Positions 3,171 to 43,170 are shown, counted from the first letter of the stretch. The stretch is DNA of 64,000 nucleotides from Duganella sp. Leaf126 (GCF_001423125.1 NZ_LMNW01000031.1:567714-631713); one strand, 5' to 3'. Made by a program: numbers and translations. The notes: generated by a model from the sequence alone, not told the origin.

Positions 3171-3216
3171 GATTCGGGTTCCGCTTAACCATGCACCACG
3201 CACAAGGATGCCATCG

Positions 3217-4818: not shown

Positions 4819-4826
4819 GAGACCGC

Positions 4827-5117
4827 ATGGCCCGCTTACCGATTTCCGTCACCCTGACCATGCTGGCCGCCGCGCTGGCGCTGGCCGGCTGCGCGCAGAC
4901 GCCCCGGCTGGACCGCCAGTTCGGCACCAGCGTGCAGCAGGCGCTGGCGCAGCAAACGCTGCAGCCGGAGGCCGGCAACAACCGTTCGCCGGTCAACGGC
5001 ATCGACGGCAAGGCTGCCGAGTCCGTGTATGAAAACTATCAGAAGTCGTTCCGCGCGCCGGAAGCCCAGGGCAGTTCGCTGACCACGGGCGTGAGCGCCG
5101 CGACCGGCACGCGCTGA
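4827..5117 (+). CDS. Small Tad-locus lipoprotein
   Basis: A 96-residue lipoprotein. The N-terminus has a basic start, a hydrophobic stretch and a lipobox LAGC with the lipidated Cys at residue 22. The mature part is Gln- and Ala-rich (VQQALAQQTLQPEAG) and ends in a Tyr-containing tail, with no recognised domain. It sits 8 nt after the secretin gene with GGAG at the proper distance, and 21 nt before cpaE. A lipoprotein next to a secretin often acts as a pilotin or stabiliser. That role is inferred from position and lipidation only; the sequence does not show it. Confidence 0.75.
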   Translation: MARLPISVTLTMLAAALALAGCAQTPRLDRQFGTSVQQALAQQTLQPEAGNNRSPVNGIDGKAAESVYENYQKSFRAPEAQGSSLTTGVSAATGTR

Positions 5118-5138
5118 ACCCAACGCCGAGGACACCCA

Positions 5139-6308: not shown

Positions 6309-6320
6309 CGAGGACCACAC

Positions 6321-7664
6321 ATGAACAGCCCCATATCGCTGCGCGAGCGGCTTGAAACCGGCGCCACCCGCGTGGTGGCCCAGCGCGTGACCGGCATCGA
6401 CAACCGCGCCTACCAGGACCTCAAGCACCGGCTGCACCAGACCCTGCTCGACCGGGTCGACCTCGAAAGCATCCAGCGCCTGTCGCAGGACCAGATCCGG
6501 CTCGAACTGCGCACGCTGGTCGAGCGCCTGCTGGAAGAAGAATCGGTGGTGATCAACGACGCCGAGCGCAAGAACCTCACGCGCGACATTCAGAACGAGA
6601 TGCTGGGCTTCGGTCCGCTCGAACCGCTGCTGGAAGACCCTACCGTCTCCGACATCCTGGTCAACACCCACCGCCAGATCTATGTCGAGCGGCGCGGCAA
6701 GCTGGAGCTGACCGACGTCACCTTCACCGACAGCGCCCACCTGATGAAGATCATCGACAAGATCGTCTCGCGCGTGGGCCGCCGCATCGACGAATCGAGC
6801 CCGATGGTCGATGCGCGCCTGCCTGACGGCTCGCGCGTGAACGCCATCATCCCGCCGCTGGCCATCGACGGCCCGATCGTCTCGATCCGGCGCTTCTCGG
6901 CCGACCCGCTGCGCCTGGCCGACCTGGTGGCCTACGGCTCGATGACGGCCGACATGGCCGAGGTGCTGCAAGGCCTGGGCCGCGCCAAGGTCAACATCCT
7001 GATCTCGGGCGGTACCGGCTCCGGCAAGACCACCATGCTCAACGTGATTTCCGGCTTCATCGGCCAGACCGAGCGCATCGTCACGGTGGAAGACGCGGCC
7101 GAACTGCAGCTGCAGCAGCCGCACGTGGTGCGGCTGGAAACCCGGCCGCCGAACATCGAGGGCAAGGGCGAAGTGAGCCAGCGCGCGCTGGTGCGCAATG
7201 CGCTGCGCATGCGGCCCGACCGCATCATCCTGGGCGAGGTGCGCGGCGCCGAGGCGCTCGACATGCTGGGCGCCATGAACACCGGCCACGAAGGCTCGAT
7301 GGCGACCATCCACGCCAACACCCCGCGCGACGCACTGACGCGCCTGGAGAACATGATCAGCATGGCTGCCGCCAGCCTGCCCACCAAGGCCATGCGCCAG
7401 CAGATCAGTTCTGCCGTGGGCGTGGTGGTGCAGGTCTCGCGCCTGCCCGACGGCAAGCGCAAGGTGATGTCGATCCAGGAAGTGACGGGCATGGAGGGCG
7501 AGATGATCACCATGCAGGAGATCTTCAGCTACAAGCAGACCGGCCTGGGCGACGACGGCACCGTGCACGGCCACCACAGCCCGAGCGGCATCCGCCCGCG
7601 CTTCATCGAGCGCCTGCGCAATTTCGGCGTGACGGTGCCGAACACCATGTTCGAGCCGAACTAA
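6321..7664 (+). CDS. cpaF: Tad pilus assembly ATPase CpaF/TadA
   Basis: Hexameric secretion ATPase of the PulE/VirB11 superfamily that powers Flp pilus assembly at the inner membrane. The 447-residue protein has an N-terminal helical region (about 1-100) and the N-terminal ATPase-associated domain with [19 protein letters not shown]. The core shows Walker [10 protein letters not shown] (about 230-238), an Asp box around VEDAAELQL, Walker [16 protein letters not shown], and the His box [17 protein letters not shown]. All catalytic motifs appear intact. It follows cpaE by 12 nt and precedes tadB by 8 nt. Confidence 0.95.
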
Positions 7665-7672
7665 GGACCAGC

Positions 7673-8647
7673 ATGGACTACCGACTGATCGTCTTCGGCC
7701 TGTGCGTGTTCGGCGCGGTGGCGCTGCTGGTATGGGGCATCTACAGCAGCGTGCACAATGTGCAGGGCGAACAGGCCAGGCGCGTGGCGCGGCGCCTGCG
7801 CAACGCCATCGGCGACGAAGGCGCCGAGCTGGCCGTCTCGATCACCAAGGACCGGGTGCTGAGCCGCGATCCCGATACCCACCGCCTGCTCTTGCGCGTG
7901 CCCGGCATCCTGCTGCTCGACCAGTTGCTGCTGCAGTCGGGCCGCAGCTGGACCGCTGCGCGCCTGCTGGCCATCATCGCCATGGGGGCGGCGGCCGGCG
8001 TGGTGCTGGCCATGGTGCTGGGCCTGCCCGCCAGCGGGTGGCTGGTGCTGGGCCTGTGCAGCGCCTGCCTGCCGTGGTGGGAACTGAACCGCGCCAAGCG
8101 GCGCCGCATCACCCGCATCGAACTGCTGCTGCCCGAAGCGCTGGACATGATGAGCCGCGCCATGAAGGCCGGTCACGCGTTTCCGACCGCGCTCAAGATG
8201 GTGGCCGACGAGATGCCGATGCCGCTGTCGGGCGAATTCCGCGCCGTGTTCGACGAAGTCAATTTCGGCGTCGGCATGGGCGATGCGCTGATGGGCATGG
8301 CGCAGCGCGTGCCCAGCGCCGACCTGCGCTACTTCGTGGTCGCGGTGCTGATCCAGCGCGAGACGGGCGGCAACCTGACCGAGCTGCTGGCCTCGATCAG
8401 CGCCATCATCCGCGACCGCCTGCGCCTGCTGGCGCAGGTACGCGTGATGTCGGCCGAAGGCAAGATGTCGGCCTGGGTGCTGGGCCTGCTGCCGTTCGGC
8501 GTGGGCGGCATCATGTTCGCATTGAACCGCGAATTCCTCACCGTGCTGTTCGTCGATCCGCAGGGCCAGCGCATGCTGATGGGCGCAGCCGGCATGATGG
8601 CGGTCGGCTTCCTGGTGATCCGCAAGATCACCAAGATCAGGATCTGA
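7673..8647 (+). CDS. tadB: Tad inner-membrane platform protein TadB
   Basis: One of the two GspF-like platform proteins of the Tad machine. The 324-residue protein has an N-terminal membrane segment (about 5-25), paired hydrophobic segments near 98-135, and a GspF-type domain with LLLPEALDMMSRAMKAGHAF in the middle. Two C-terminal membrane segments follow (about 260-320). The GspF domain is cytoplasmic in this family and contacts the ATPase CpaF. An AAGGA ribosome binding site precedes the ATG. tadC follows after 4 nt, so the pair is presumably co-translated. Confidence 0.92.
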   Translation: MDYRLIVFGLCVFGAVALLVWGIYSSVHNVQGEQARRVARRLRNAIGDEGAELAVSITKDRVLSRDPDTHRLLLRVPGILLLDQLLLQSGRSWTAARLLAIIAMGAAAGVVLAMVLGLPASGWLVLGLCSACLPWWELNRAKRRRITRIELLLPEALDMMSRAMKAGHAFPTALKMVADEMPMPLSGEFRAVFDEVNFGVGMGDALMGMAQRVPSADLRYFVVAVLIQRETGGNLTELLASISAIIRDRLRLLAQVRVMSAEGKMSAWVLGLLPFGVGGIMFALNREFLTVLFVDPQGQRMLMGAAGMMAVGFLVIRKITKIRI

Positions 8648-8651
8648 CACC

Positions 8652-9581
8652 ATGACAGCGATCCAACTGATTTTTCTGGCCGTGGTCTTTGTCGGCGTCT
8701 TCGGCGCCGCGCTGGTCGCGGCCCGCCTGCTGACCAACACCGCCGTGCGCGACCGGCTCGAAGCACTGTCCGAGCCGACCGATTCGCGCTTCGACAAGGG
8801 CCGCTGGCTGCAGCAGCTGGTCAACCTGGCCTCGCCGCTGGCCAAGCTGTCGGTGCCGGCGGAAGGCTGGGAAACCTCGGCCGTGCGGCGCCGCTTCATC
8901 AACGCCGGCTGGCGCACGCCGGCCGCGCCGGGCCTGTTCTACGCCGCCAAGACCGGGCTGTCCCTGCTGCTGCCGCTGCTGGTGTTCCTGTACCTGAGCA
9001 GCACCGGCAGCCAGGCCGAAGGCATGACCAAGCTCAGTTATCTGCTGGTGGCGGCCGCCATCGGTTACTACGTCCCGGGACTGGTGCTCAACGAGGTGAT
9101 CAAGCGGCGCCAGCGCGACATCTTCGAGAGTTTTCCCGATGCGCTGGACCTGATGACGGTCTGCGTGGAAGCAGGCCTGGCGATGGATGCGGCGCTGGCG
9201 CGCGTGGCCCAGGAGATCGGCCTGAAAAGCGTGATCCTGGCCGAGGAACTGCAACTGGTGACGCTGGAACTGCGCGCCGGCAGTCCCAAGGAAAAGGCGC
9301 TGCGCAACCTGTCGCTGCGCACCGGCGTGGAAGATGTCGATGCGCTGGTGACGATGCTGATCCAGGCCGACCGCTTCGGCACCAGCGTGGCCGATTCGCT
9401 GCGCGTGCAGTCGGAACTGCTGCGCACCAAGCGCCGCCAGCGCGCCGAGGAGCAGGCCGCCAAGATCGCGCTCAAGCTGCTGTTCCCGCTGATTTTCTTC
9501 ATCTTCCCCAGCCTGCTCGTGGTGCTGCTGGGACCGGCGCTCTTGCAGCTCTACCAGAGCCTCGGCGCCGCCACCCAATAA
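8652..9581 (+). CDS. tadC: Tad inner-membrane platform protein TadC
   Basis: Second GspF-like platform component. The 309-residue protein has an N-terminal membrane anchor (about 3-25), central hydrophobic segments (about 95-150), and the type II secretion F domain containing FPDALDLMTVCVEAGLAMDA. A C-terminal membrane segment with KLLFPLIFFIFPSLLVVLLG ends the protein. TadB and TadC are paralogs and usually work as a pair. No tadD, tadE, tadF or tadG gene follows. Those parts must lie upstream of the window, lie elsewhere, or be absent. The stop codon overlaps an ATG (TAATG) leading into the next reading frame. Confidence 0.92.
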   Translation: MTAIQLIFLAVVFVGVFGAALVAARLLTNTAVRDRLEALSEPTDSRFDKGRWLQQLVNLASPLAKLSVPAEGWETSAVRRRFINAGWRTPAAPGLFYAAKTGLSLLLPLLVFLYLSSTGSQAEGMTKLSYLLVAAAIGYYVPGLVLNEVIKRRQRDIFESFPDALDLMTVCVEAGLAMDAALARVAQEIGLKSVILAEELQLVTLELRAGSPKEKALRNLSLRTGVEDVDALVTMLIQADRFGTSVADSLRVQSELLRTKRRQRAEEQAAKIALKLLFPLIFFIFPSLLVVLLGPALLQLYQSLGAATQ

Positions 9582-30346: not shown

Positions 30347-30548
30347 AGGTCCATGTTGTGGCGAATCAACTTTACCGTGATGGCGGGGCCATTATCGCCT
30401 ACAAAAATCCACAGAAATTCACCATTTCCCACGATCGCGCCCGCAGCGGTGCGCAGCCGCTATTTACGTGTGGCATCTGTTGGAATTTGGCACAAATTGG
30501 CCGCAGCAGCTTGCCGGACAGCCAAGATAAAACTGCAATTGTCTGGGA

Positions 30549-30554
30549 TATAAT
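30549..30554 (+). promoter_or_regulatory. -10 box ahead of the polysaccharide operon
   Basis: A perfect TATAAT lies in the AT-rich part of the 293-nt divergent region between the type I secretion operon and the Wzm gene (30347-30639). It is 85 nt before the Wzm ATG. No convincing -35 was found. The rest of this gap holds no other gene that I can support. Confidence 0.4.
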
Positions 30555-30580
30555 TATTCGATCGTTATTGCAGGATACCC

Positions 30581-30643
30581 ATGCTTGCCATTCCTTTATC
30601 GCTGCCGTTGTGGTCGATCCGCGCCGGCGCCGCGCGGCCATGA
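30581..30643 (+). CDS. Possible 20-codon leader peptide upstream of wzm
   Basis: A short frame of 20 codons starts with ATG at 30581 after a GGA element and runs into TGA at 30641-30643. The TGA overlaps the Wzm ATG at 30640 (ATGA). The Wzm start has no Shine-Dalgarno of its own, so translation of the leader could deliver ribosomes to it. The product (hydrophobic, ending in GAARP) has no recognised domain. It could equally be chance. Confidence 0.3.
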   Translation: MLAIPLSLPLWSIRAGAARP

Positions 30644-31461
30644 GCGCCATGCTGCGCGCGCTATGGCACAGCCGTGGTTTCGTCCGCAGCAGCGTACGGC
30701 GCGAGTTCGAGGCCCGCTATCGCAACACCATGCTCGGCGCCGCCTGGTCCGTGCTCCATCCGCTGGCGATGATACTGGTCTACACGGTGATCTTTTCGCA
30801 GGTCATGCACGGCAAGCTGGCCGGCGACAGCCGGGATCCCGGCACGCTCGGCGAGCTCGGCCGCTACAGCTACAGCATCTACCTGTGCGCCGGCATCCTG
30901 TGCTGGGGCCTGTTCGCCGAGATCGTCACGCGCGCCCAGAACATGTTCATCGAGAACGCCAACCTGCTCAAGAAGGCCAGCTTTCCGCGCATCTGCCTGC
31001 CGGTCATCGTGGCCGGCAATGCGCTGCTGAACTTTGCCATCATCTTCGGCCTGTTTACCGTGTTCCTGCTGGGGTGCGGCCGGTTCCCGGGACCCGTATT
31101 CGCGCTGCTGCTGCCGCTGCTGCTGCTGGAGGTGGCGCTGGCGCTGGGCCTGGGCCTGGTGCTGGGCGTGCTCAATGTGTTTTTCCGCGACGTCGGCCAG
31201 TTCTGCCAGATCTTCATCCAGTTCTGGTTCTGGCTCACGCCCATCGTGTACCCGGCCGCGATCCTGCCGCCGGCGCTGCGCGCGCTGCTGGTATTCAATC
31301 CGATGGCGGCAGTGACGGGCGGCTTCCAGGACGTGCTGTTGCATGGCCGCGCGCCGGACTGGGCCAGCCTGCTGCCGGCTGCGCTGTGCGCGCTGGCGCT
31401 CGGTGCGCTGGGCCTGCGCCTGCTGCGCCGGCGCGGCGGCGACATGGGGGACGAGTTATGA
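30640..31461 (+). CDS. wzm: Polysaccharide ABC exporter permease (Wzm type)
   Basis: 273-residue inner-membrane permease of the ABC-2 family. It has a short cytoplasmic N-terminus with VRREFEARYRNTMLGAAW, the amphipathic region typical of Wzm/KpsM/TagG, then six membrane segments. The C-terminal hydrophobic pair follows WFWLTPIVYPAAILP. With Wzt it moves an undecaprenyl-linked glycan across the inner membrane. The ATG at 30640 gives the standard family N-terminus; longer in-frame forms add an unrelated hydrophilic stretch. It overlaps the Wzt gene by 4 nt (ATGA). It begins an operon running to about 42944. Confidence 0.92.
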   Translation: MSAMLRALWHSRGFVRSSVRREFEARYRNTMLGAAWSVLHPLAMILVYTVIFSQVMHGKLAGDSRDPGTLGELGRYSYSIYLCAGILCWGLFAEIVTRAQNMFIENANLLKKASFPRICLPVIVAGNALLNFAIIFGLFTVFLLGCGRFPGPVFALLLPLLLLEVALALGLGLVLGVLNVFFRDVGQFCQIFIQFWFWLTPIVYPAAILPPALRALLVFNPMAAVTGGFQDVLLHGRAPDWASLLPAALCALALGALGLRLLRRRGGDMGDEL

Positions 31462-32930
31462 CCGATCCCGTGCAGGACGCCATCACCGTCAGCGGCGTGG
31501 GCAAGGCGTTCAAGCGCTACCCCACGCGCTGGGCGCGCCTGGCCGAGTGGCTGCTGCCGTGGCGCGGGGCGCGCCACCAGCAGCACTGGGTGTTGCAGGA
31601 CATCGATTTCCGCATCGCCGCCGGCGAGGCGGTGGCGCTGATCGGCGTCAACGGCGCCGGCAAGAGCACGCTCCTGAAACTGATCACCGGCACCACGCTG
31701 CCCACGGTCGGCAGCGTGACCGCGCACGGGCGGGTGGCGGCCCTGCTGGAACTGGGCCTGGGCTTTCACCCGGACTTCACCGGCCGCCAGAACGTGCTGA
31801 TGGCCGGTCAGCTGATGGGGCTGGAGGCCGGCCGCCTTGCCGCGCTGCTGCCCGCGATCGTGGCCTTTGCCGGCATCGGCGACTACCTCGACCAGCCGGT
31901 GCGCCTGTATTCGAGCGGCATGCAGATGCGCCTGGCCTTCAGCGTGGCCACCTGCGAGCGGCCCGACATCCTGATCGTCGATGAAGCGCTGGCGGTCGGC
32001 GACGTCTTCTTCCAGCAACAATGCTTCGACCGCATCCGCCGCTACACGGCCGCCGGCACCACCCTGCTGTTCGTCTCGCACAGCATGGGCACGGTGATGG
32101 ACATCTGCGACCGCGCGCTGTATATCCGCCAGGGCCGGCTGGCCTTCGACGGCGCCCCCCGCACGGCGGTCGACCGCTACCAGGCCGAGCTGCTGGGCCA
32201 TGCCCCGGCCGATACCCGCCTTGCGCCCGCTACGCACACCACGCCCGACCGGTCCGCTGCAGATTTCCCTGCCGATGCCGCAGTCGGCGCCGCGCCGGCC
32301 GGTACTGCGCTGGCCGGCGATGCGGTGGCAGGTGACATGTCGGCCAGCGCCGCAGTGACCGGTAACGCACCGGCTGCGGCGGCGGATCCGCTGCACCAGC
32401 TGGCCGACGCAGCGGGGCTGACCGGCAGCGCCGGCAGCATCGCCAGCGCCGATGTCGCCTGCCTGCGCGCGGCGTTCGTGGACGCTGCCGGCACGCCGCT
32501 GGCCACCATCGTGGCCGATCAGCAGGTCACGCTGCGCATCGATTACCGCGTACAGCGCGCGTTCGACGATCCGCACATCGGCTTCAAGATCCGCAACCGC
32601 CATGGCGTGGTGCTGTTCGAAACCAACTCGTACTGCATGCACCAGTGTCCGGGCCCGGTGGCTGCCGGCCAGGTGCTGTCGGCCAGGTTCAGCTTCGCCC
32701 TGACGCTGGCACCGGACGATTACACGCTCACGGTGGGATTTAGCAATGGCGGGTATGATCAGGGCAGTTTTCGCGAAGTGCTCAATTACCTGCACGAGGT
32801 CAGCGCCTTCACGATACTGCCCGACACCGCAGGCATCCGCTGGGCCGGCATGACCAATCTGGCGCCACGGTTTGCCTGCGTTACGCTGTCCCCTTTCCCG
32901 CCATGCGCACCGGAGGCTGCATGCCGCTGA
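31458..32930 (+). CDS. wzt: Polysaccharide ABC exporter ATPase with carbohydrate-binding C-terminus (Wzt type)
   Basis: 490-residue ATPase. The N-terminal domain (about 1-250) has Walker A IGVNGAGKSTLLKLI, signature YSSGMQMRLAF, Walker B ILIVDEALAVGD and the switch His in LFVSHSMGT. An Ala-rich, low-complexity linker (about 255-325) leads to a beta-sandwich C-terminal domain (about 330-475) of the Wzt_C type, with VTLRIDYRVQRAFDDPHIGF and LAPDDYTLTVGFS. In studied systems this domain binds the modified non-reducing end of the glycan and so licenses export. The linker is longer and more repetitive than in model Wzt proteins. It overlaps the next gene by 10 nt. Confidence 0.92.
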   Translation: MTDPVQDAITVSGVGKAFKRYPTRWARLAEWLLPWRGARHQQHWVLQDIDFRIAAGEAVALIGVNGAGKSTLLKLITGTTLPTVGSVTAHGRVAALLELGLGFHPDFTGRQNVLMAGQLMGLEAGRLAALLPAIVAFAGIGDYLDQPVRLYSSGMQMRLAFSVATCERPDILIVDEALAVGDVFFQQQCFDRIRRYTAAGTTLLFVSHSMGTVMDICDRALYIRQGRLAFDGAPRTAVDRYQAELLGHAPADTRLAPATHTTPDRSAADFPADAAVGAAPAGTALAGDAVAGDMSASAAVTGNAPAAAADPLHQLADAAGLTGSAGSIASADVACLRAAFVDAAGTPLATIVADQQVTLRIDYRVQRAFDDPHIGFKIRNRHGVVLFETNSYCMHQCPGPVAAGQVLSARFSFALTLAPDDYTLTVGFSNGGYDQGSFREVLNYLHEVSAFTILPDTAGIRWAGMTNLAPRFACVTLSPFPPCAPEAACR

Positions 32931-34084
32931 TCTCGTACGCACAGAATGCCGAAGACGTGCTGCTGTGGCGCGCGCTGCGCACCGTGCAGGACGGCTTTTA
33001 CATCGATGTCGGCGCCAACGATCCGCAGCACGATTCGATGACCAGGCTGTTTTACGACGCCGGCTGGCATGGCATCAATATCGAGCCGATGCCGTCGTAC
33101 CGCGCAATCTTGCAGCGCGCCCGTCCACGCGACATCAACCTGGCGCTGGCCTGCGGCGCCGCCGACGGCCGCATCACGCTGTTCGATACGCCCGACGTCA
33201 ACGGCTGGGCCTCCACCGACGCCGCCACCGCGCAGGCCCACCGCGCGGCCGGCATTGCGGTGGTCGAGATCGAGGTGCCGGTGCGGACCCTGGCCGGCAT
33301 CTGCGCCGAGCACGCGCCGGCCACGATCCACTTCCTCAAGATCGATGTCGAAGGTTTCGAGGGCGAGGTATTGCGCGGCATGGACCTGCGCCGCTGGCGC
33401 CCGTGGATACTGGTGATCGAAGCGACCGTCCCCAACAGCACCGTCGCCAGCCACGCAGACTGGGAACCGCTGGTGCTGGCCGGCGATTACCGCTTTGCCT
33501 ACTTCGATGGCCTGAACCGCTACTACGTGGCTGCCGAACAGGCACAGCTGCTGCCGCTGCTGGCAGTGCCGCCCAATGTGTTCGACGGCTACATCAGCTA
33601 CCACCTGGACCACGCCTGGCGCACCATCGACGACCTGACCGGCCGGCTGGCACAGCTGCAGAAGCTGCAACAGGCGGCCCTGCAACAGCAAGCCGAGGCT
33701 GCCGCGCAGGCGGCACAGCTGCAGGCCCATCTCGACGCCATCCACGCCAGCACCTCGTGGCGCGTGACGCGGCCGCTGCGCGCGGCGGGACGCCTGATCC
33801 AGTCCGGCGCCGTGCGCACCGTTCCCGCCACCGTGCTGCGCGCGGCGCTGCGACGCACCCTGGTCACGCTGGCGCAATGGACGCCGCTGCGGCGCGTGAC
33901 CTTCGCGCTGCTGCGCCGCGCGCCGGCACTGCAGCGGCGCTGCCTGGCCTGGTATGCCGCGGTCCGGGGCGCCAGCAGCGAGATCGTGCCGCCCGGTGTG
34001 CCGCCGGCGCTGGCGCACCTGCCGCAATCGGCGCGCCGCGTGCTGGCCGACCTCGAACGCCCCCCTCAACCTGACGACCGTTAG
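32921..34084 (+). CDS. FkbM-family methyltransferase
   Basis: 387-residue protein. The N-terminal 210 residues form an FkbM-type SAM-dependent methyltransferase: ISYAQNAEDVLLWRAL, the SAM-binding GFYIDVGANDPQHD, and IHFLKIDVEGFEGEVLRGMD. A Gln/Ala-rich coiled-coil stretch follows (about 245-285), then a basic helical C-terminus of unknown role. The ATG at 32921 has GGAGG 4 nt upstream; an ATG at 32903 lacks such a site. It overlaps the Wzt stop. Given the Wzt carbohydrate-binding domain, it could methylate the end of the glycan as a chain terminator, as WbdD does in E. coli O9a. That role is inferred. Confidence 0.88.
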   Translation: MPLISYAQNAEDVLLWRALRTVQDGFYIDVGANDPQHDSMTRLFYDAGWHGINIEPMPSYRAILQRARPRDINLALACGAADGRITLFDTPDVNGWASTDAATAQAHRAAGIAVVEIEVPVRTLAGICAEHAPATIHFLKIDVEGFEGEVLRGMDLRRWRPWILVIEATVPNSTVASHADWEPLVLAGDYRFAYFDGLNRYYVAAEQAQLLPLLAVPPNVFDGYISYHLDHAWRTIDDLTGRLAQLQKLQQAALQQQAEAAAQAAQLQAHLDAIHASTSWRVTRPLRAAGRLIQSGAVRTVPATVLRAALRRTLVTLAQWTPLRRVTFALLRRAPALQRRCLAWYAAVRGASSEIVPPGVPPALAHLPQSARRVLADLERPPQPDDR

Positions 34085-34095
34085 ACCTTTCACGC

Positions 34096-37000
34096 ATGCG
34101 ACTCGCGATCGACCTCCAGGCGTGCCAGCACGGCGCCGCCGCCGACCCCGAAGCCACCGTGGCGCTGGTGCGCGCGCTGGTCACCGCAGCGCAGGCGGCC
34201 GGCCACACCGTGCTGCTGATGCTGTACCACGCCTGGCCCGCGCAGGCCGACGACCTGCGCCGCGCACCCGGCTGGCCGTCAGCGACAGCACCGGCCATAC
34301 CGTCGGCCGCTGCCGCGCCGGGCCAGGTGCAGCTGCACGTGCTCGCTACCACGCGCGGCGGCGACGACTGGCGCCGTGGCGCCGCCGACCTGCTGCGCGC
34401 CACCGTGCTGCAGGACTGGCGCGCCGACCTGGTCTGGACCCCGGGATTGTTCGAGCGCGACAGCCCTCACGCGGTCACCGGAACAGGAACGGTGCCGGCC
34501 ATCTACAGCTTGGGCAGCATGAGCAGCTTGCGCGGCATGGGCAGCATGGGCAGCATGGGCCGCCCGGACAGCGTGTCCGGCCCGGCCGCCAGGAACATGG
34601 CGCTGGCAGCATCCGAACGGCAGCACCAGGCGCTGGCCCGGGCCCGCCTGCTGACCGGGGCCGACGCCGCCACCGTCGCCGCCCTGCGGCTGGCGGCGCC
34701 GGGCGTCGAGGTGGTACAGGCGGCAAGCGGCGAGGCGATGCTGGCGGCGCTGACGGGGCTGATGGCTGCCGGCGGCAAGTCGGCTGTTGCCGCTCATATG
34801 GCGACTGTCGCTACCGTGCCTGCTGACAGCACAAACGCTTCCAGCGATATAGCGACTGCAACCGGCGCGGGAGCCGTGGGCGCCGGCGCTGCAGCAGTTG
34901 CCGCTGATACCGTGAGTGCTGGCGGTACGGCGTCTGCAACCAGTGCGGGAGCTGGCGGCGCTGGCGCTGCCGTCGATCGCGCAGCTGCGCGCGATGCAGC
35001 AACTGCCGCCGATACCGTGGCTACAGGCGGTGCGGCGTCTGCCACCGGTGCGGGCGCTGGCGGCGCCGGAGCTGCCGTCGATCCCGCGGCTGCTGGCGGT
35101 GCGGCGTCTGCCGCTGCAGGGCGTGCAGTCACCACAGCGGCCACGCACGTGCCGATCGCAGCGCGGCCCGCCCGGCCGTCGATGGCCTTCCTGTCGCCGC
35201 TGCCGCCGCAGCACTCGGGCATTGCCGACTACAGCGTCGAATTGCTGGCCCAGCTCGAACGGTACTATGACATCGAACTGATTGCCGATGATCCGGTCGA
35301 TCCCGGCCTCGCCCGGCGCTACCCGGTGCGCGACTGCGCCTGGTTCGACCGCCATGCGGGCCGCTACGCGCGCGTGCTCTACCACTTCGGCAACCACAGC
35401 GTGCACCAGCACATGTTCGCGCTGCTGCGCCGCCATCCCGGCATCGTGGTGCTGCACGATTTTTTCCTCAGCGGTGCGCTCGACCAGATGGAGCGCAGCG
35501 GCCAGCCCCAGGTCTTTCTCGACGCGCTGTATGCATCGCACGGCCATACCGGCCTGCTGGCCCACCAGCGCCACGGGCGCCACGCGGCGATCTGGACCTA
35601 CCCGTGCAACAGGCAGGTGCTCGAGCATGCCAGCGGCGTGATCGTCCACGCCGACTTTTCGCGGCGCCTGGCGCAGCAGTGGTATGGCGGCGACAGCGCA
35701 CAGCTGTGGCAAACCGTGCCTCTGATCCGTGGTCTGCCGGCAGGACATGACGCCGACAGCGCCCGTGCCACGGCGCGCGCCGCGCTGGGCGTGGCCGACG
35801 ATGTCTTCCTGGTATGCAGCTTCGGCATGATGGGTGTCACCAAGCGCAACGAGCTGCTGCTTGCAGCGTTTCTCGCCAGTCCGCTGGCGGCCGATCCGCG
35901 CTGCCAGCTGGTGTTTGTCGGTGCGCCCGATCCCGGCGACTACGGCCGCAGCATCGCGCAGGCGATCGCCGCAGCCGGGTCAGACACCGGTGCGCGCATC
36001 CGCATCACCGGCTTCGTCGCAGGCGACCAATACGCCCGATGGCTGGCAGCCGCCGACGCTGCCGTACAGCTGCGCAGCCGCACGCGCGGCGAGACCTCGG
36101 CCTCGGTGCTCGACTGCCTGCTGCATGGCGTGCCCACCGTGGTCAACGCCCACGGCGCCAATGCCGACCTGCCGGCCGACGTGCTGCTGCGATTGCCTGA
36201 CGACTGCGATGCGGCGGCGCTGGCCGGTGCGCTGGCACAGCTGCACGGCCCGTCCGGCGCGGCCCTGCGCGCCGGCCTGGCAACGCGCGCGCGCGCCTAC
36301 ATGGCCGCCCACCATGCGCCGTCCCGGGTCGGGCCGCGCTTTCGCGACGCCATCGAGACCGCGACCGCATACAGCCCGGCCGTCCATTACGCGGCGCTGC
36401 TGGCCGCGCTGCAGGCACTGGGCCCGGCGCCGGCCGGCGCGCTGATGGAAACGGCCGAAGCGATCGCCGCCAACCGCCTGCCGCTGGCGCCGCGCCAGTT
36501 GTTCGTCGATATCTCGGCGCTGGTCGAGGCCGATCTGAAGACCGGCATCCAGCGCGTGGTGCGCGCCATCGTGCTGCGCCTGGTCGAGGCGCCGCCGCCC
36601 GGCTACCGGGTGGAGCCTGTGTACTGCAACGGCGGCAACCGTCCGTATCGCTACGCCCGGTCCTTCACCTTGCGCATGCTGGGCTGCCCGACCATGGCGC
36701 TCGAAGATGCGCCGCTCGAGGTGCGCGCCGGCGACCGCTTTCTCGGTCTCGACCTGTACACCAACGGCACCGCGCAAAACCGCGAGCGCCTGCAGGACAT
36801 GCGCCGGCGCGGCGTGGACATCTATTTCGTCGTGTACGATCTGCTGCCGCTGCTCAAGCCGCAAGTGTTCCCGGTGGGGACCGACACTTATTTCTCCGCC
36901 TATCTCGACACCATCGCAGCCGTGGCCGATGGCGTGCTGTGCATCTCGCGCGCCGTGGCCGACGAGCTGCACGACTGGCTGGCAACGCGTCCCGGCCGCA

Positions 37001-37707
37001 GCCGCCGCGAGCCTTTGCCGCTCGGCTATTTCCACCTGGGCGCCGACCTCGACGCCAGCGCACCGACCACCGGCCTGCCCGCCAACGCCGGCGACCTGCT
37101 GGATGCCGTCGCAGCGCGGCCCAGCATGCTGCTGGTCGGCACACTGGAGCCGCGCAAGTGCCAGGACCAGGCGCTGGCCGCGGCCGAGTTGCTGTGGCGC
37201 CAGGGCGTGGACCTGAACCTGGTCATCGTGGGCAAGCAGGGCTGGATGGTGGACAAGCTGGTGCAGCAGCTGCAGAACCACGTTGAACGGGACCGCCGGC
37301 TGTTCTGGCTGACCGGGGCGTCCGACGACATGCTGAACCGGCTGTACCAGTCCTGCTCGGCGCTGCTGGCGCCATCGATCGGCGAGGGCTTCGGCCTGCC
37401 GCTGATCGAGGCCGCCCGGCACGGGTTGCCGATCATCGCGCGCGACCTGCCGGTGTTCCGCGAGGTCGGCGGCGCGCATGCGTATTACTTCAGCGGTACC
37501 GCTGCATCCGACCTGGCGGCAGCGCTGCAGCACTGGCTGACCCTGCACGCGGCCGGCGCCGCGCCACCGTCGTCGGCGCTGCCCTGGCTGAGCTGGCAAG
37601 CCAGCACCGAACAGCTGCTGCGCGTGCTCGACGGCGGGCACTGGTACCGCACCCTGGTCCCCGCCGCTGCGCGGGAACCGTCCACCTTGACGACAGGCGC
37701 CGCATGA
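34096..37707 (+). CDS. Giant multidomain glycosyltransferase (two GT4 domains plus degenerate N-terminal domain)
   Basis: 1203-residue cytoplasmic enzyme. The N-terminal region (1-220) starts MRLAIDLQACQ, as in multidomain GT4 proteins, but the usual sugar-binding segment after it is missing. Residues about 223-358 are low-complexity Ala/Gly with imperfect internal repeats. The first clear GT4 domain (about 360-770) has SPLPPQHSGIADYSVELLA and a GETSASVLDCLLHGVPTVVN motif. The second (about 795-1195) has FVDISALVEADLKTGIQRVV, LLVGTLEPRKCQDQAL and the acidic motif EGFGLPLIEAARHGLP. Such enzymes can build whole polymer backbones, as WbdA does. The next gene overlaps by 4 nt. Linkage and sugars cannot be predicted. 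Confidence 0.87.
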   Translation: MRLAIDLQACQHGAAADPEATVALVRALVTAAQAAGHTVLLMLYHAWPAQADDLRRAPGWPSATAPAIPSAAAAPGQVQLHVLATTRGGDDWRRGAADLLRATVLQDWRADLVWTPGLFERDSPHAVTGTGTVPAIYSLGSMSSLRGMGSMGSMGRPDSVSGPAARNMALAASERQHQALARARLLTGADAATVAALRLAAPGVEVVQAASGEAMLAALTGLMAAGGKSAVAAHMATVATVPADSTNASSDIATATGAGAVGAGAAAVAADTVSAGGTASATSAGAGGAGAAVDRAAARDAATAADTVATGGAASATGAGAGGAGAAVDPAAAGGAASAAAGRAVTTAATHVPIAARPARPSMAFLSPLPPQHSGIADYSVELLAQLERYYDIELIADDPVDPGLARRYPVRDCAWFDRHAGRYARVLYHFGNHSVHQHMFALLRRHPGIVVLHDFFLSGALDQMERSGQPQVFLDALYASHGHTGLLAHQRHGRHAAIWTYPCNRQVLEHASGVIVHADFSRRLAQQWYGGDSAQLWQTVPLIRGLPAGHDADSARATARAALGVADDVFLVCSFGMMGVTKRNELLLAAFLASPLAADPRCQLVFVGAPDPGDYGRSIAQAIAAAGSDTGARIRITGFVAGDQYARWLAAADAAVQLRSRTRGETSASVLDCLLHGVPTVVNAHGANADLPADVLLRLPDDCDAAALAGALAQLHGPSGAALRAGLATRARAYMAAHHAPSRVGPRFRDAIETATAYSPAVHYAALLAALQALGPAPAGALMETAEAIAANRLPLAPRQLFVDISALVEADLKTGIQRVVRAIVLRLVEAPPPGYRVEPVYCNGGNRPYRYARSFTLRMLGCPTMALEDAPLEVRAGDRFLGLDLYTNGTAQNRERLQDMRRRGVDIYFVVYDLLPLLKPQVFPVGTDTYFSAYLDTIAAVADGVLCISRAVADELHDWLATRPGRSRREPLPLGYFHLGADLDASAPTTGLPANAGDLLDAVAARPSMLLVGTLEPRKCQDQALAAAELLWRQGVDLNLVIVGKQGWMVDKLVQQLQNHVERDRRLFWLTGASDDMLNRLYQSCSALLAPSIGEGFGLPLIEAARHGLPIIARDLPVFREVGGAHAYYFSGTAASDLAAALQHWLTLHAAGAAPPSSALPWLSWQASTEQLLRVLDGGHWYRTLVPAAAREPSTLTTGAA

Positions 37708-38705
37708 ATCCGCTTCCCGTTCCCTGCGCCGACGCCGACCGGATCGCGGTCGTGATTCCCTGCTACCGCGTGCGTCGCCACATCCTCGGCGTGCTGGCCG
37801 CGATCGGTCCCGAAGTGGCGCGCATCTACGTGGTCGACGATGCCTGCCCCGAACAGTCGGGCGCGCTGGTGCAGACCGCGTGCCACGACCGCCGCGTGGT
37901 GGTGCTGCACCACGCCGAGAACCGCGGTGTCGGTGGTGCCGTGCTCAGCGGCTACCGCGCGGCGCTGGCCGACGGCATGCGCATCCTGGTCAAGATCGAC
38001 GGCGACGGCCAGATGGACCCGGCCCTGCTGCCGCATTTCGTGGCGCCCATCCTGAGCGGCGAAGCCGACTACACCAAGGGCAACCGCTTCTTCGACCTCG
38101 AGAAGATCCGCCGCATGCCGACCGTGCGCCTGTTCGGCAACGCGGTGCTGTCGCTGCTGACCAAGCTGTCGTCCGGCTACTGGGACGTGTTCGATCCCAC
38201 CAACGGTTACACCGCGCTGCACGCGGACGCCGCCCGCCACCTGCCGTTCGACCGCATCAGCACCCGGTATTTTTTCGAATCGGACATGCTGTTTCGCCTC
38301 AACACGATCCAGGCAGTGGTGGTGGACGTGCCGATGGACGCGAGCTATGGCGACGAGGTGAGCAACCTGAAGGTCTCCACCATCGCCACCGAGTTCCTGC
38401 GCAAGCACGTGCGCAACCTCGGCAAGCGCCTGTTCTACAACTACTACCTGCGCAATATGTCGCTGGCGTCGCTGCAGCTGCCGCTGGGCGCCGTGCTGCT
38501 GCTGTTCGGCAGCGCCTACGGCGCCTGGCACTGGGTCCGCGCGGCGGAACAGGGTGTGGCGACGCCGGCCGGCACGGTGATGGTGTCGGCGCTGCCGGTC
38601 CTGATGGGCATGCAGCTGATCCTGGCGTTCCTGGCGTACGATATCGCCTCGGTGCCGCGCCGGGTACTCCACAAGCGGTCGCTGGCGCCGCTGCGCCATG
38701 ACTAG
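37704..38705 (+). CDS. DPM1/GtrB-like polyprenyl-phosphate glycosyltransferase (GT2)
   Basis: 333-residue GT2 enzyme of the dolichol-phosphate-mannose synthase type. The GT-A domain has IAVVIPCYRVRRHILGVL, YVVDDACPEQSG, ILVKIDGDGQMDPALLPHFV with the metal site, and FDPTNGYTALH. Two C-terminal hydrophobic segments (about 253-275 and 293-315) anchor it in the inner membrane, as in GtrB. It would load a sugar onto undecaprenyl phosphate on the cytoplasmic face. It overlaps the upstream gene by 4 nt and the following GtrA gene by 8 nt, which strongly supports a Gtr-type partnership. Confidence 0.9.
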   Translation: MNPLPVPCADADRIAVVIPCYRVRRHILGVLAAIGPEVARIYVVDDACPEQSGALVQTACHDRRVVVLHHAENRGVGGAVLSGYRAALADGMRILVKIDGDGQMDPALLPHFVAPILSGEADYTKGNRFFDLEKIRRMPTVRLFGNAVLSLLTKLSSGYWDVFDPTNGYTALHADAARHLPFDRISTRYFFESDMLFRLNTIQAVVVDVPMDASYGDEVSNLKVSTIATEFLRKHVRNLGKRLFYNYYLRNMSLASLQLPLGAVLLLFGSAYGAWHWVRAAEQGVATPAGTVMVSALPVLMGMQLILAFLAYDIASVPRRVLHKRSLAPLRHD

Positions 38706-39156
38706 CCGGACCGACCCGGCGCGCGCGTCCCCTCGGCGCCAGTTCCTGCTGTTCGTGGGCGGCGGCCTGCTGTGCGCCGCGCTCGACATCGGCGTGATGC
38801 AGGGCCTGCTGTCGGCCGGCCCCGGCGTGAGCGTAACGGCCGCCACCAGCGCCGGATTTGCGGCAGGATTGCTGCTCAATTATGCTTTTCATGCGCGCAT
38901 TACCTTTGGCAGCGTGCCCAGCATGGGCCGCTTCCTGCGTTTTTTGTGCGTGGTCGTGCTCAACTACCTGCTCACCCTCGCGTGCGTGGGCGGCGCGCTG
39001 GCGCTCTACCACGCCGGCCTCGGTGCCGGTCTCCATGCCGGTCTCGGATCGGGCGCCGCCAGCGTTGCCACGGCAGCGCTGGCAGGCAAGCTGGTGGCGC
39101 TGCCGCTGGTGGCGTGCAACGGTTTTTTGCTCAGCAAATACTGGATCTTCCGATGA
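38698..39156 (+). CDS. GtrA-family membrane protein
   Basis: 152-residue protein with four hydrophobic segments, typical of GtrA (PF04138 type). RRQFLLFVGGGLLCAALDIG starts the first and ends with a conserved small-residue run; FAAGLLLNYAFHARITF is the second. The last segment ends with CNGFLLSKYWIF, the usual family C-terminus. GtrA proteins are thought to flip the lipid-linked sugar made by GtrB to the periplasm. It overlaps both neighbours (8 nt upstream, 4 nt downstream). Confidence 0.9.
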   Translation: MTSRTDPARASPRRQFLLFVGGGLLCAALDIGVMQGLLSAGPGVSVTAATSAGFAAGLLLNYAFHARITFGSVPSMGRFLRFLCVVVLNYLLTLACVGGALALYHAGLGAGLHAGLGSGAASVATAALAGKLVALPLVACNGFLLSKYWIFR

Positions 39157-40040
39157 CCACTTTCCTGCCGATCCGTACCGACGACGACGCCCTGGCCGGG
39201 TATGCGCGCCTGCTCGCGGCGTGTTTTCCGGGCACCCGAAAATTTACCGGCCCCTACCTGCAATGGCTGTACCGCGACAACCCGGACGGCGCCGCACTCG
39301 GGTTCGACGCCTGGGATGGCGACCAGCTGGCGGCGCACTACGTGTGCATCGCCGCGCGCGCCGTGATCGACGGCGCCGCAGTGCCGGTGCCGGTCCTGCT
39401 GTCGCTCAATACCGCCACCCACCCGGCGTACCAGGGCCGCGGCCTGTTTACCAGGCTTGCGGCGCTGACCTACGCGGCCGGGGCCGGCCGCGGCTGTCAC
39501 GGCGTGTACGGCGTGGCCAATGCCCACAGCACGCCCGGCTTTGTGCGCAAGCTCGGCTTCCAGCTGGTGCGCCCGCTCGAAGCGCGCATCGGCTGCGGCC
39601 GCCTGCCGCCGCGCGCGCCTGGCGCGCTGTCGTTCGTCCGGCACTGGGACCAGGCCAGCCTGGCCTGGCGCGCCGCCTGTCCCGGCAAGCCGCTGGACGT
39701 GCGCCGTTGTGGCCCCGTGTGGCAATTCCGGGCGCCGGCCCTGCCGCTGGTGCATGCATATGCCGAACTGGCCGCCAGCCCGGAACCGGACTGGTCGTTG
39801 CCCGGGGTCGGCGGCGCGCGGTGGGGAGCAGCGCCGCTGCGGCTGTTCCTGGGCTTGCGCCCCGCCGCCGGCAGCGGCGGTGCGGTCGGCGTCCATGGCG
39901 TCTACGGCGCCTACCTGCGTATTCCGCAGCGGCTGCGGCCTTCGCCGCTGAACCTGATCTATCTGCCGCTGGCCGAGGGCTCAGTCCGGCTGGCGCCCGA
40001 AGCGATCGATTTTTCCTTTCTCGACTTCGATGCCTACTGA
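39153..40040 (+). CDS. GNAT-family N-acetyltransferase in the glycan operon
   Basis: 295-residue protein. The GNAT fold is in the first 150 residues. It shows the acyl-CoA-binding motif A as THPAYQGRGLFTRLAALTY, preceded by a beta-strand pair LLSLNTA, and a later YGVANAHSTPGFVRKLGFQ typical of motif B. The C-terminal half (about 160-295) does not match a domain I recognise. In a surface-glycan operon an acyltransferase would most simply acylate an amino sugar; the substrate is inferred. The ATG overlaps the GtrA stop (ATGA). Its end overlaps the deacetylase gene by 11 nt. Confidence 0.82.
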   Translation: MTTFLPIRTDDDALAGYARLLAACFPGTRKFTGPYLQWLYRDNPDGAALGFDAWDGDQLAAHYVCIAARAVIDGAAVPVPVLLSLNTATHPAYQGRGLFTRLAALTYAAGAGRGCHGVYGVANAHSTPGFVRKLGFQLVRPLEARIGCGRLPPRAPGALSFVRHWDQASLAWRAACPGKPLDVRRCGPVWQFRAPALPLVHAYAELAASPEPDWSLPGVGGARWGAAPLRLFLGLRPAAGSGGAVGVHGVYGAYLRIPQRLRPSPLNLIYLPLAEGSVRLAPEAIDFSFLDFDAY

Positions 40041-40860
40041 AACCACCGAGGCGGCGGACGCCGCCCTGTTCCTGTTCGCCCATCCCGACGACGAATTCGG
40101 CGTCTGGCAAACCATGCTCGACTGCATGGCGCGCGGGCTGCGCGTGCGCTGCGCCTATTTCACCACCAGCGCCACGGCCAGCCTGTCGGCGCGCCGCGCG
40201 GCCGAATCGCGCCGCGTGCTGGGCGCGCTGGGCGTGGCGCCCGACGACATCGTATTCCCCGGCGCCGAGCTGGCCATCCTCGACGCCAGCCTGCCGCACC
40301 GGCTGGCGCCGGCCGCAGCCTGGCTGGCGCAGTGGTGCCGCCAGGCCGGCACGCCACGGCTGTTGTGCGTGCCGGCGTGGGAAGGCGGCCACCAGGACCA
40401 CGACGCGCTGCATGCGCTGGCTGTCGAGACGGCGCACGCCGCCGGCCTGCTGGCCTGCGTGCGCCAGTATGCGCTGTACCACAGCGCAGGCTTGCCGCCG
40501 CCGCTGTTCCGGGTGCTGCGGCCGCTGGCTGCCAACGGCGCGGTCGAACGCACGCGCATCCCGTGGCGCAACCGCCTGCGCTTTTGCCGTTACTGCGTGG
40601 CATACCCGTCGCAGCTGATGACCTGGATCGGCCTGTTTCCGTGCGTGCTGTGGCACTACCTGCGGCGCGGCGAGCAGACACTGCAAGCGGTCAGCATCGC
40701 GCGCACGCTGGAGCGTCCGCATGCCGGCGCGCTGTATTACGAACAGCGCAAATTCTTTACCTGGCCGCAGATGCAGCAGCTGCTGGCCAGCTGGCGCGCA
40801 AGCCGGCCTGGTGACGTTGAACGGCGCGACCATCCACCCGCCCCCCGGCCACCTCGATAA
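40030..40860 (+). CDS. PIG-L family deacetylase
   Basis: 276-residue LmbE/PIG-L-type zinc-dependent amidohydrolase. The hallmark metal motif HPDDE is at residues 18-22 (FLFAHPDDEFGVW). Further conserved residues appear in WEGGHQDHDALHALA, where the HxxH-like pair supplies the third ligand. These enzymes remove N-acetyl groups from sugars such as GlcNAc in lipid-linked intermediates. Here it neighbours a GNAT acyltransferase, which suggests an acyl exchange on an amino sugar; this is inference. It overlaps the previous gene by 11 nt and stands 11 nt before the GT-C gene. Confidence 0.88.
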   Translation: MPTETTEAADAALFLFAHPDDEFGVWQTMLDCMARGLRVRCAYFTTSATASLSARRAAESRRVLGALGVAPDDIVFPGAELAILDASLPHRLAPAAAWLAQWCRQAGTPRLLCVPAWEGGHQDHDALHALAVETAHAAGLLACVRQYALYHSAGLPPPLFRVLRPLAANGAVERTRIPWRNRLRFCRYCVAYPSQLMTWIGLFPCVLWHYLRRGEQTLQAVSIARTLERPHAGALYYEQRKFFTWPQMQQLLASWRASRPGDVERRDHPPAPRPPR

Positions 40861-40871
40861 CGGCGACAGCC

Positions 40872-42944
40872 ATGACCGCAAACATTTGTCCCACACGGCC
40901 CCTGCTGCGCTACGCCTTTCCCGCTGCGGTGGCGCTGATCCTGCTGTTGCTGCTGGTACGCAACCATGGCCTCTACCCGGTGGTATTCCTCGACGAGTGG
41001 AGCTACAGCCGTTATGCGCGGCTGGCGCCGCTGTCCGAGGCGATCGTGCCGTCGTATCTGTACCTGGCCCTGTTTGGCGCCACCAATGCCTGCGGCACGG
41101 CCTTCCTCGAGTGCGCCCGGGTCGGCAACGCCGTGCTGTACGTGCTGGCCGCACCGTTCCTGTACCGCGTGGCCCTGCCGGTGACCGGCCGCCCGGCCGC
41201 CATCGTCGTGACGCTGACCGCGCTGCTCGGCGGCAGCAATACCTACACGGCCTACTTCATGCCCGAGGCCACGTATTTTCTCGGCTTCTGGGTGCTGAGC
41301 TGGATCATGCTGTCGGAGGTGGGCGGCACCGGCGTGCGCAGTGCCGTACTGGCCGGCGTCGTGCTGGGACTTATGAGTCTGGTAAAAGTGCATGCACTGT
41401 TCCTGCTGCCGGCCATCATGCTGTACGCGCTGTGGCGCAGCTGGCGCACCGGCCGGCCGGCGACCGGCGTGCTGGCGGCAGCAGCGATGGCCGCGACGAC
41501 GCTGGTGCTGAAACTGGCGCTGGGCTGGCTGCTGGCCGGTGCGGCCGGGCTCGACCTGCTGGGCAGCATGTACGGCGGCCAGGCCCGGCAAAGCGCCGGC
41601 GGCGTGCTGGCGCGCCTGCTGCAGCCGGCGCTGTGGAACGCCTACGGTCATCTGATGGCGCTGGTGCTGCTGTGCGCCGTGCCGCTGCTGGCGCTGCTGA
41701 CTGCGGCCGCCAGCGCGCAGGCGCGCGCCGCCGCCGGCCAGCCGGGCCGCAATGCGCTCGTGTACACGGTGCTCACGCTGGGCGCCACGCTGGGGTTGAC
41801 CGTGCTGTACACGGCGTCGATCGCGCATGCCGGGCCGAACGAAGGCGCGCGCCTGCACCTGCGCTACTACGATTTCGTGTTTCCGCTGCTGGCCATGCTG
41901 GCCGCCTCGCCGCTGCTGGGCCATCGCGGCGACTGGCGCGTGCGCGCGGCGCTGGTGCTGCTGCTGGCGGCGCTGATCGTGGTGTCTGCGCTGACGCTGC
42001 GCCCCGCGTTCGTGTTGTCGTTCGTCGACGGCCCCGAGCTGGTCAACCTGGCCGAGCACAAGTCCCGTTTCCACCAGCTGGTGCTGCTGCAATTGCTGGT
42101 CATCGCTGCCTGGTGCTGGCGCCCGGCGCTGGGCCGGCTCGGCTTCGTCTGGCTGCTGCTGCCGGTCATGGCGCTGAACGCCAGCGTCATGTCCTACCGC
42201 ACCTTGCAACTGGCTGCCGGCCCGGCCCAGCTGGCCGACCGCGTGGGCCGCGCCCTGCATGCACAGCTGAGCGACGCCGAGCGCGATCGCCTGCTGCTGA
42301 TCGGCGACGATGCAGTGGCGCTGTTCCGGGCCCAGTTCCACGTCGACCGCCACGCCAGCCAGACCTTGTTGCTGGCGCCGGGCGAGGCAATCGATGCGGC
42401 CATGGTGCCGCCGGGGGTCGGGACGGTGGTGGTACTGGGCGACCACGCCTTGCCGCCGGAACTGGCGGCCCAGGTGGTCACCAGCGACTACCAGCTGACG
42501 CGGATCGGGCAAGCGCCCGCGCCGGCCCGGATCGTGGCCCGCACCCGCTTCGATGTGGCAGGGCGGACCGCTGCGCTAACGCGGGTGCAGGGACTGGCCG
42601 CTGCCGAGCCGTGGGGCGCCTGGTCCGATGGCGGCCAGGTCGTGCTGGAGTTTGCCCGCCCCTTCCCGCGCAAGATGATCTTGCATCTGACCGCGCAGGC
42701 GTACGGGCCCAATATCGGCGCGCCGTTCGTGCTGGCGGTGGGCGAGGTGCGGCGCACCATCACGCTGGCGGGCAGCGCGCGCGAACGCCTGGTGCAGTTC
42801 GATACCGACGGTCGCCAGCGCACCCTGACCATCGCCGTGCCGCACCCGGCCAGGCCGGCTGAAATCGACAACCGCAGCACGGACCTGCGCGCCCTGGGCA
42901 TCGGCCTGATCGCCATCGGCATCGGCGAACCGACCGCGCCATAA
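40872..42944 (+). CDS. GT-C-like polytopic membrane protein (PMT/ArnT type)
   Basis: 690-residue protein with about ten to twelve hydrophobic segments over residues 12-450 and a soluble, mainly beta C-terminal domain (about 470-690). The first periplasmic loop carries VVFLDEWSYSRYARLAP. Its Asp-Glu pair stands where lipid-phosphate-dependent GT-C enzymes have their catalytic acid. This fits the third component of a Gtr-type module, transferring a flipped undecaprenyl-phosphate sugar to a surface glycan or lipid A. It ends the operon. The acceptor cannot be deduced. It could also be an uncharacterised membrane protein without transferase activity. Confidence 0.7.
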   Translation: MTANICPTRPLLRYAFPAAVALILLLLLVRNHGLYPVVFLDEWSYSRYARLAPLSEAIVPSYLYLALFGATNACGTAFLECARVGNAVLYVLAAPFLYRVALPVTGRPAAIVVTLTALLGGSNTYTAYFMPEATYFLGFWVLSWIMLSEVGGTGVRSAVLAGVVLGLMSLVKVHALFLLPAIMLYALWRSWRTGRPATGVLAAAAMAATTLVLKLALGWLLAGAAGLDLLGSMYGGQARQSAGGVLARLLQPALWNAYGHLMALVLLCAVPLLALLTAAASAQARAAAGQPGRNALVYTVLTLGATLGLTVLYTASIAHAGPNEGARLHLRYYDFVFPLLAMLAASPLLGHRGDWRVRAALVLLLAALIVVSALTLRPAFVLSFVDGPELVNLAEHKSRFHQLVLLQLLVIAAWCWRPALGRLGFVWLLLPVMALNASVMSYRTLQLAAGPAQLADRVGRALHAQLSDAERDRLLLIGDDAVALFRAQFHVDRHASQTLLLAPGEAIDAAMVPPGVGTVVVLGDHALPPELAAQVVTSDYQLTRIGQAPAPARIVARTRFDVAGRTAALTRVQGLAAAEPWGAWSDGGQVVLEFARPFPRKMILHLTAQAYGPNIGAPFVLAVGEVRRTITLAGSARERLVQFDTDGRQRTLTIAVPHPARPAEIDNRSTDLRALGIGLIAIGIGEPTAP

Positions 42945-43040: not shown

Positions 43041-43170
43041 GAGTGGACTACGAGTGCGGGCTGTGAGTCAGGACTATGAGCGAGGACTACGAGTGAGGAC
43101 TATGAGCGAGGACTATAGGTGCGGGCTATGAGTGCGGGCGGTGAGTGCCAGCGACGACTGCGCGCTATGA
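43041..43170 (+). repeat. 13-bp tandem repeat, about ten copies
   Basis: Ten consecutive degenerate 13-nt units, close to GTGMGGACTATGA, fill 43041-43170 within the 287-nt gap between the glycan operon and the helicase gene. The period is exact over all ten units; the copies differ mainly by single substitutions. There are no spacers. Apart from this array the gap holds no gene or clear terminator. Confidence 0.85.

Follow-up and report, generated by a model that had tools for sequence, protein, structure and literature searches.

Results

Gene Content and Genomic Context of the Locus

The stretch of DNA analyzed here (the window) comprises 64,000 nucleotides of the Duganella sp. Leaf126 genome. 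Five codirectional genes span 37704-42944 on the plus strand, encoding a GtrB/DPM1-like GT2 enzyme, GtrA, a GNAT acyltransferase, a PIG-L deacetylase, and a GT-C protein, and four further genes in the same direction lie upstream:

30358-31461, plus strand: Wzm-type ABC exporter permease (PF01061, 1.5e-25)
31461-32930, plus strand: Wzt-type ABC ATPase with a Wzt_C carbohydrate-binding domain (PF00005, 2.5e-19; PF14524, 1.8e-24); the start is approximate and the stop is taken from the ORF at 30585-32930
32903-34084, plus strand: FkbM methyltransferase, likely a chain terminator or modifier (PF05050, 3.5e-30)
34096-37707, plus strand: large two-domain GT4 glycosyltransferase (PF13692, 7.5e-28, two stretches)
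37704-38705, plus strand: GtrB/DPM1-like GT2, 333 aa, a predicted polyprenyl-phosphate HexNAc synthase with C-terminal membrane helices (PF00535, 2.6e-15)
38698-39156, plus strand: GtrA, 152 aa, a predicted flippase for lipid-linked sugar (PF04138, 7.5e-12)
39153-40040, plus strand: GNAT N-acyltransferase, 295 aa, with an Eis/AAC(2')-like fold (PF13527, 8.6e-08)
40030-40860, plus strand: PIG-L de-N-acetylase, 276 aa (PF02585, 2.7e-11)
40872-42944, plus strand: GT-C glycosyltransferase, 690 aa, with a C-terminal DUF7024 beta domain (7.2e-30), a predicted periplasmic transfer enzyme

The initial annotation had recognized a GT2-GtrA-GT-C set together with GNAT and PIG-L, and this observation is confirmed. 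It had also placed the latter two between GtrA and GT-C with overlapping stops and starts; their position and the 4-base (GtrA/GNAT) and 11-base (GNAT/PIG-L) overlaps are as described, but the last junction is an 11-base gap between PIG-L and the GT-C start. GtrB and GtrA overlap by 8 bases, and the stop of the GT4 gene overlaps the GtrB start by 4. Since the Wzm/Wzt exporter, FkbM, and GT4 genes all run in the same direction upstream, the cassette closes a gene cluster for an ABC-exported polysaccharide. The gene beyond GT-C encodes a DEAD-box helicase and lies on the opposite strand. Between the two (43045-43170), a 13-base unit (GGACTATGAGTGA-like) is repeated approximately 7 to 9 times. 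A second repeat, 105 bases in 2.2 tandem copies with 82% match (34886-35141), lies within the GT4 gene and encodes an Ala/Gly-rich linker joining both GT4 halves. The first part of the window (2265-9581) carries Tad/Flp pilus genes, including those for RcpC/CpaB, a secretin, ATPases, and two T2SSF proteins.

GtrB, GtrA, and GT-C Resemble a Three-Component Glycosylation System

In Gtr-type base cassettes, it is established that one sugar is loaded onto undecaprenyl phosphate, flipped, and attached outside the membrane (PMC8035078). The window encodes a GT2 enzyme with a DxD motif and C-terminal membrane helices (read from sequence), an adjoining small membrane protein of the GtrA family, and a GT-C fold protein with acidic residues in its first periplasmic loop. 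By analogy, this cassette would take a sugar from undecaprenyl phosphate and attach it to a polymer outside the cytoplasm. GtrB matched dolichol-P-mannose synthase in the Protein Data Bank (5mlz, 1.8e-10), its closest curated models, AglJ and PpgS, were weak matches far below cut-off, and its DGDGQ motif was invariant across 15 homologs except for one near-invariant glycine.

The GT-C protein matched PMT_2 (Pfam) only below cut-off. Its AlphaFold (AF2) model (pLDDT 83.5) was nearest to EmbB (2.0e-06) and the Cupriavidus ArnT (3.0e-06) in Foldseek, with AftD and AglB behind, and D41-E42 in the first periplasmic loop, where the catalytic acid is expected, was invariant in 20/20 homologs. These fold matches and the invariant D-E pair led us to reject a broken or unrelated membrane protein; all three Gtr-type assignments in the initial annotation stand, with genes, coordinates, motifs, and the GT-C fold verified. 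Searching the Protein Data Bank by sequence returned no relative of either GT-C or GNAT, and the fold matches of their models point to enzyme class rather than to substrates. GT-C was also the most variable partner of the cassette. Only Oxalobacteraceae loci contained full-length relatives of the window-type GT-C; in other loci its position was taken by proteins without a Pfam match or by a YfhO-like protein, the type of GT-C that Bacillus and Staphylococcus employ for GlcNAc (PMC8035078).

GNAT and PIG-L Retain Their Catalytic Motifs

The GNAT structure model (pLDDT 91.8) has the GNAT fold with a Q/RxxGxG/A acyl-CoA loop (QGRGLF), in which G95 and G97 were invariant in 44/44 sequences. Its nearest Foldseek matches were Eis-family acetyltransferases, and AAC(2')-Ia was also matched; Eis and AAC(2')-Ia are enzymes that acetylate aminoglycoside amino groups. 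In PIG-L, the HxDDE and GGHxDHD motifs, the former and the HxDH within the latter being those of the metal site, were invariant in 39/39 sequences, and the predicted activity is removal of N-acetyl from a hexosamine. PIG-L was the only Pfam family matched, placing the protein outside the families of ArnD (polysaccharide deacetylase) and NaxD (YdjC), and its match to the BshB1 model was weak (2.7e-07, far below cut-off). A hydrophobic membrane patch (YPSQxxTWxGLFPFVxLHYL) was conserved in the PIG-L subfamily, in a comparison for which extraction of control sequences was poor; the patch was therefore set aside and supports no argument here. Inspection by eye revealed no secretion signal or signal peptide in either protein. 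Judged from their sequences, the catalytic parts of both appear intact.

GNAT and PIG-L Form One Evolutionary Unit

The window-type PIG-L was carried by 37 and the window-type GNAT by 35 of 394 relatives from the taxonomic family, and all 35 GNAT genomes also had PIG-L; two weaker GNAT matches (E 2e-26 and 9e-21, half the profile) were counted as other GNATs. The order GtrB-GtrA-GNAT-PIG-L-GT-C, the object of a neighborhood search proposed in the initial annotation, was recovered in 20 of 36 family relatives, with one more cut by a contig end. A scan of public genomes with the GNAT alignment (one genome per species, 84,980 species), which has some genomes in common with the family search, gave 57 loci across Burkholderiales, Lysobacteraceae, Rhodanobacteraceae, Pseudomonas, Insolitispirillum, and several MAGs. 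PIG-L lay directly downstream of GNAT in 55 of these, the exceptions being L103, truncated at the end of its contig, and L125, in which the order is reversed, and the overlap was the same 11 bases in 33 of 38 measured pairs. GtrA directly preceded GNAT in 43/57 loci, and in 51/57 GtrB lay no more than 10 kb away. Distances of GNAT and PIG-L were correlated (0.93), and remained so after removing GtrB and GtrA (0.69). GNAT and PIG-L are therefore one evolutionary unit, and the conserved order and 11-base overlap reject a chance juxtaposition of genes.

The placement of the two genes is constant relative to each other, but the block is present or absent and sometimes lies elsewhere. Of the two findings that the initial annotation had named as refuting it, variable placement of these genes and a GT-C protein lacking its catalytic acid, neither was observed as worded. 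In L062 and L065 the pair was located kilobases away from GtrB, and in L114 and L115 it stood alone; in the L115 genome, no relative of the window-type GtrB was found and GtrA was present elsewhere. In a Rhodanobacter locus (L119:11674-12840), a UDP-GlcNAc 2-epimerase (Pfam) directly follows PIG-L, and the same ORF cluster occurs in L120; this arrangement may point to a HexNAc donor.

The Pair Is an Optional Insert with a Substitutable Acyltransferase

Window-type GtrB occurred in 79/394 genomes overall vs. 35/37 PIG-L genomes (Fisher p = 1e-25), a comparison that ignores phylogeny and on which no conclusion is made to rest by itself. Twenty sampled relatives had the same GtrB without GNAT and PIG-L, mostly as GtrB-GtrA-GT-C. 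The base cassette is complete without the pair, since the same GT-C family was found nearby in 16 of these 20 loci; in L133, the order FkbM-GT4-GtrB-GtrA-GT-C is that of the window minus two genes. In a tree of 75 GtrB sequences, pair presence changed approximately 16 times, at least 8 of these changes being forced by well-supported branches, and it was unclustered (16 changes vs. a shuffled mean of 17.7). Hence, GNAT and PIG-L are an optional insert, present or absent as a block. A fixed five-gene system was rejected: GT-C and the pair are not bound to each other, and the pair switches between presence and absence across the GtrB tree. The initial annotation, which saw the pair as a built-in part of a full Gtr set, was too rigid.

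PIG-L occurred without the window-type GNAT in two of the 37 genomes (L048 and L049), both with an Acyl_transf_3 membrane acyltransferase just upstream of PIG-L. In L048 (9512-14595), the order GT-C(DUF6311)-GT2-GtrA-Acyl_transf_3-PIG-L places a nonorthologous acyltransferase in the GNAT slot, while in L049 the acyltransferase and PIG-L occur with no Gtr set (open frames read by eye).

Discussion

A Proposed Pathway for N-Acyl Exchange

We consider the chances about even that the five genes constitute a three-component GT2-GtrA-GT-C periplasmic glycosylation cassette with a two-gene N-acyl-exchange insert. Exchange of the N-acyl group on the carried sugar is the simplest explanation, because the deacetylase and the acyltransferase are jointly present or absent downstream of GtrA while GtrB is largely unchanged. 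In the pathway that we propose, whose sugar, acyl group, and acceptor we infer along with the sequence of its steps and the stage on the lipid, GtrB would transfer an N-acetylhexosamine from a UDP donor to undecaprenyl phosphate at the cytoplasmic face. PIG-L would strip the N-acetyl group from the lipid-linked sugar, and the Eis/AAC(2')-like GNAT would then move an acyl group from acyl-CoA to the freed amine. GtrA would flip the product, and GT-C would link the sugar to the polysaccharide exported by the adjoining Wzm/Wzt transporter. PIG-L deacetylates GlcNAc-PI in GPI synthesis; this precedent, the gene order, and a topology without a visible secretion signal suggest that deacylation takes place on the undecaprenyl-linked sugar. 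Because putting plain acetate back would achieve nothing, the model requires that the transferred acyl group differ from acetyl or that the exchange be regulated.

Relation to Known Systems

The single steps have precedents in ArnC/D/T, NaxD, Lgm, and PpgS, but the combination of a deacetylase and a GNAT in a Gtr cassette is not described in the open-licence papers searched. The initial annotation knew of no Gtr cassette with such a pair, and our search of that literature found none either; a qualification is due, as the deacetylation half is well precedented and Mig-14-type GNAT and PIG-L genes occur together in Pseudomonas LPS-core clusters. The ArnC-ArnD-ArnE/F-ArnT, FlmF2-NaxD-FlmK (Francisella), and LgmA-C (Bordetella) systems similarly combine a GT2, a deformylase or deacetylase acting on a lipid-linked sugar, and GT-C transfer; unlike the window cassette, they are not known to include an acyltransferase, and they target lipid A. 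Their deacylases belong to other families, of the polysaccharide-deacetylase or YdjC type. In all three of these systems, lipid-linked sugars are known to be deacylated before the GT-C step (documented in part by PMC4688374, PMC8149597, and PMC4993483). CsbB-GtcA-YfhO-type systems share the GT2, GtrA flippase, and GT-C components, with HexNAc transfer known for CsbB/YfhO; the window adds two putative acyl-exchange genes, and the review text contains neither a deacetylase nor an acetyltransferase (PMC8035078). Mycobacterial PpgS-Rv3632-Rv3779 likewise comprises a polyprenyl-P-GalNAc synthase, a small membrane partner, and a GT-C, and yields galactosamine on arabinogalactan, but the parts of the source consulted describe no linked PIG-L and GNAT pair (PMC3485146).

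Two further systems pair the enzymes outside a Gtr context. In Caulobacter, the deacetylase HfsH and the GNAT HfsK are proposed to modify a single surface polysaccharide one after the other; unlike the window GNAT, HfsK is a FemX-like tandem GNAT, and the pathway uses a lipid-linked oligomer rather than a Gtr set (PMC5362036). In Pseudomonas, PA5003-PA5002 (Mig-14 and DnpA) is a GNAT followed by a PIG-L in an LPS-core gene cluster (PMC8005017), and DnpA affects antibiotic persistence (PMC6048251). That pair differs in its Mig-14/Acetyltransf_6 GNAT, the N-terminal membrane segment of its PIG-L, and its lack of a Gtr set. The window pair has neither the Mig-14-type GNAT nor the membrane-anchored PIG-L, the two GNATs belong to different Pfam families, and BLASTP between the window pair and PA5003-PA5002-type pairs found no similarity; homology was therefore rejected. 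A Pseudomonas alcaligenes genome carries both a PA5003-PA5002-type arrangement (L157:68-2367), with a Mig-14 GNAT and then a membrane-anchored PIG-L, and a window-type cassette (L105).

Weighing the Alternatives

That a carried amino sugar loses and perhaps regains an N-acyl group, as the initial annotation suggested, is the best-supported reading of the pair, because GNAT and PIG-L are inseparable, 35 of 37 PIG-L genomes have the window-type GtrB, and an unrelated acyltransferase fills the GNAT slot of another full Gtr set in L048. Further support may come from the modeled GNAT fold, nearest to acetyltransferases of aminoglycoside amino groups, and from the YfhO-like GT-C of some relatives. 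The stand-alone pairs in L114 and L115 argue against it and keep it conditional, as do the Pseudomonas core-cluster pairs, which work without a Gtr set. These same observations, the latter involving another PIG-L and GNAT type (PMC8005017), and the distance of the pair from GtrB in L062 and L065 favor an explanation in which the pair alters the N-acyl group on a sugar other than the Gtr-carried one (e.g., a nucleotide sugar or a main-polysaccharide or LPS-core residue made in the cytoplasm) and surface-glycan clusters merely collect such genes. We find this somewhat doubtful given how often GtrA lies directly upstream and GtrB within 10 kb, and given an independent acyltransferase with PIG-L behind GtrA in L048.

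The free amine could instead be the product. PIG-L would then leave the lipid carrier loaded with a free amino sugar, as for ArnD, NaxD, and Lgm, and this sugar would be added as a cationic free amine, while GNAT acts elsewhere or tunes the free-amine share. Deacetylation ahead of GT-C transfer is precedented chemistry: Francisella lipid A galactosamine depends on flmF2/flmK (PMC4688374), and Bordetella GlcN requires lgmA-C (PMC4993483). Yet the acyl step looks obligatory, since GNAT is never apart from PIG-L and their overlap is conserved, which makes a free-amine end product unlikely. We regard as very improbable that the pair acts on a small-molecule glycoside unrelated to surface glycans, as MshB/MshD or Bsh enzymes do. 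The weak BshB1 match and the existence of stand-alone pairs are in its favor, but no other thiol-pathway gene was seen near the pair, which is consistently located in surface-polysaccharide clusters.

Returning to N-acyl exchange at the level of the carrier, its full form is one that we put forward tentatively: HexNAc would be loaded onto undecaprenyl phosphate, its acetyl group swapped for a different acyl group on the lipid, and the exported polysaccharide decorated, with GNAT and PIG-L translationally coupled and gained or lost as a block, thereby diversifying surface antigens. If true, changing the N-acyl group while the sugar sits on its lipid carrier would provide extra surface-polysaccharide variation without new nucleotide-sugar pathways. 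It would give a widespread, little-studied GNAT-PIG-L pair a testable job, and may serve as a model for the unexplained PIG-L/GNAT pair of Pseudomonas LPS-core clusters, in which the PIG-L is DnpA.
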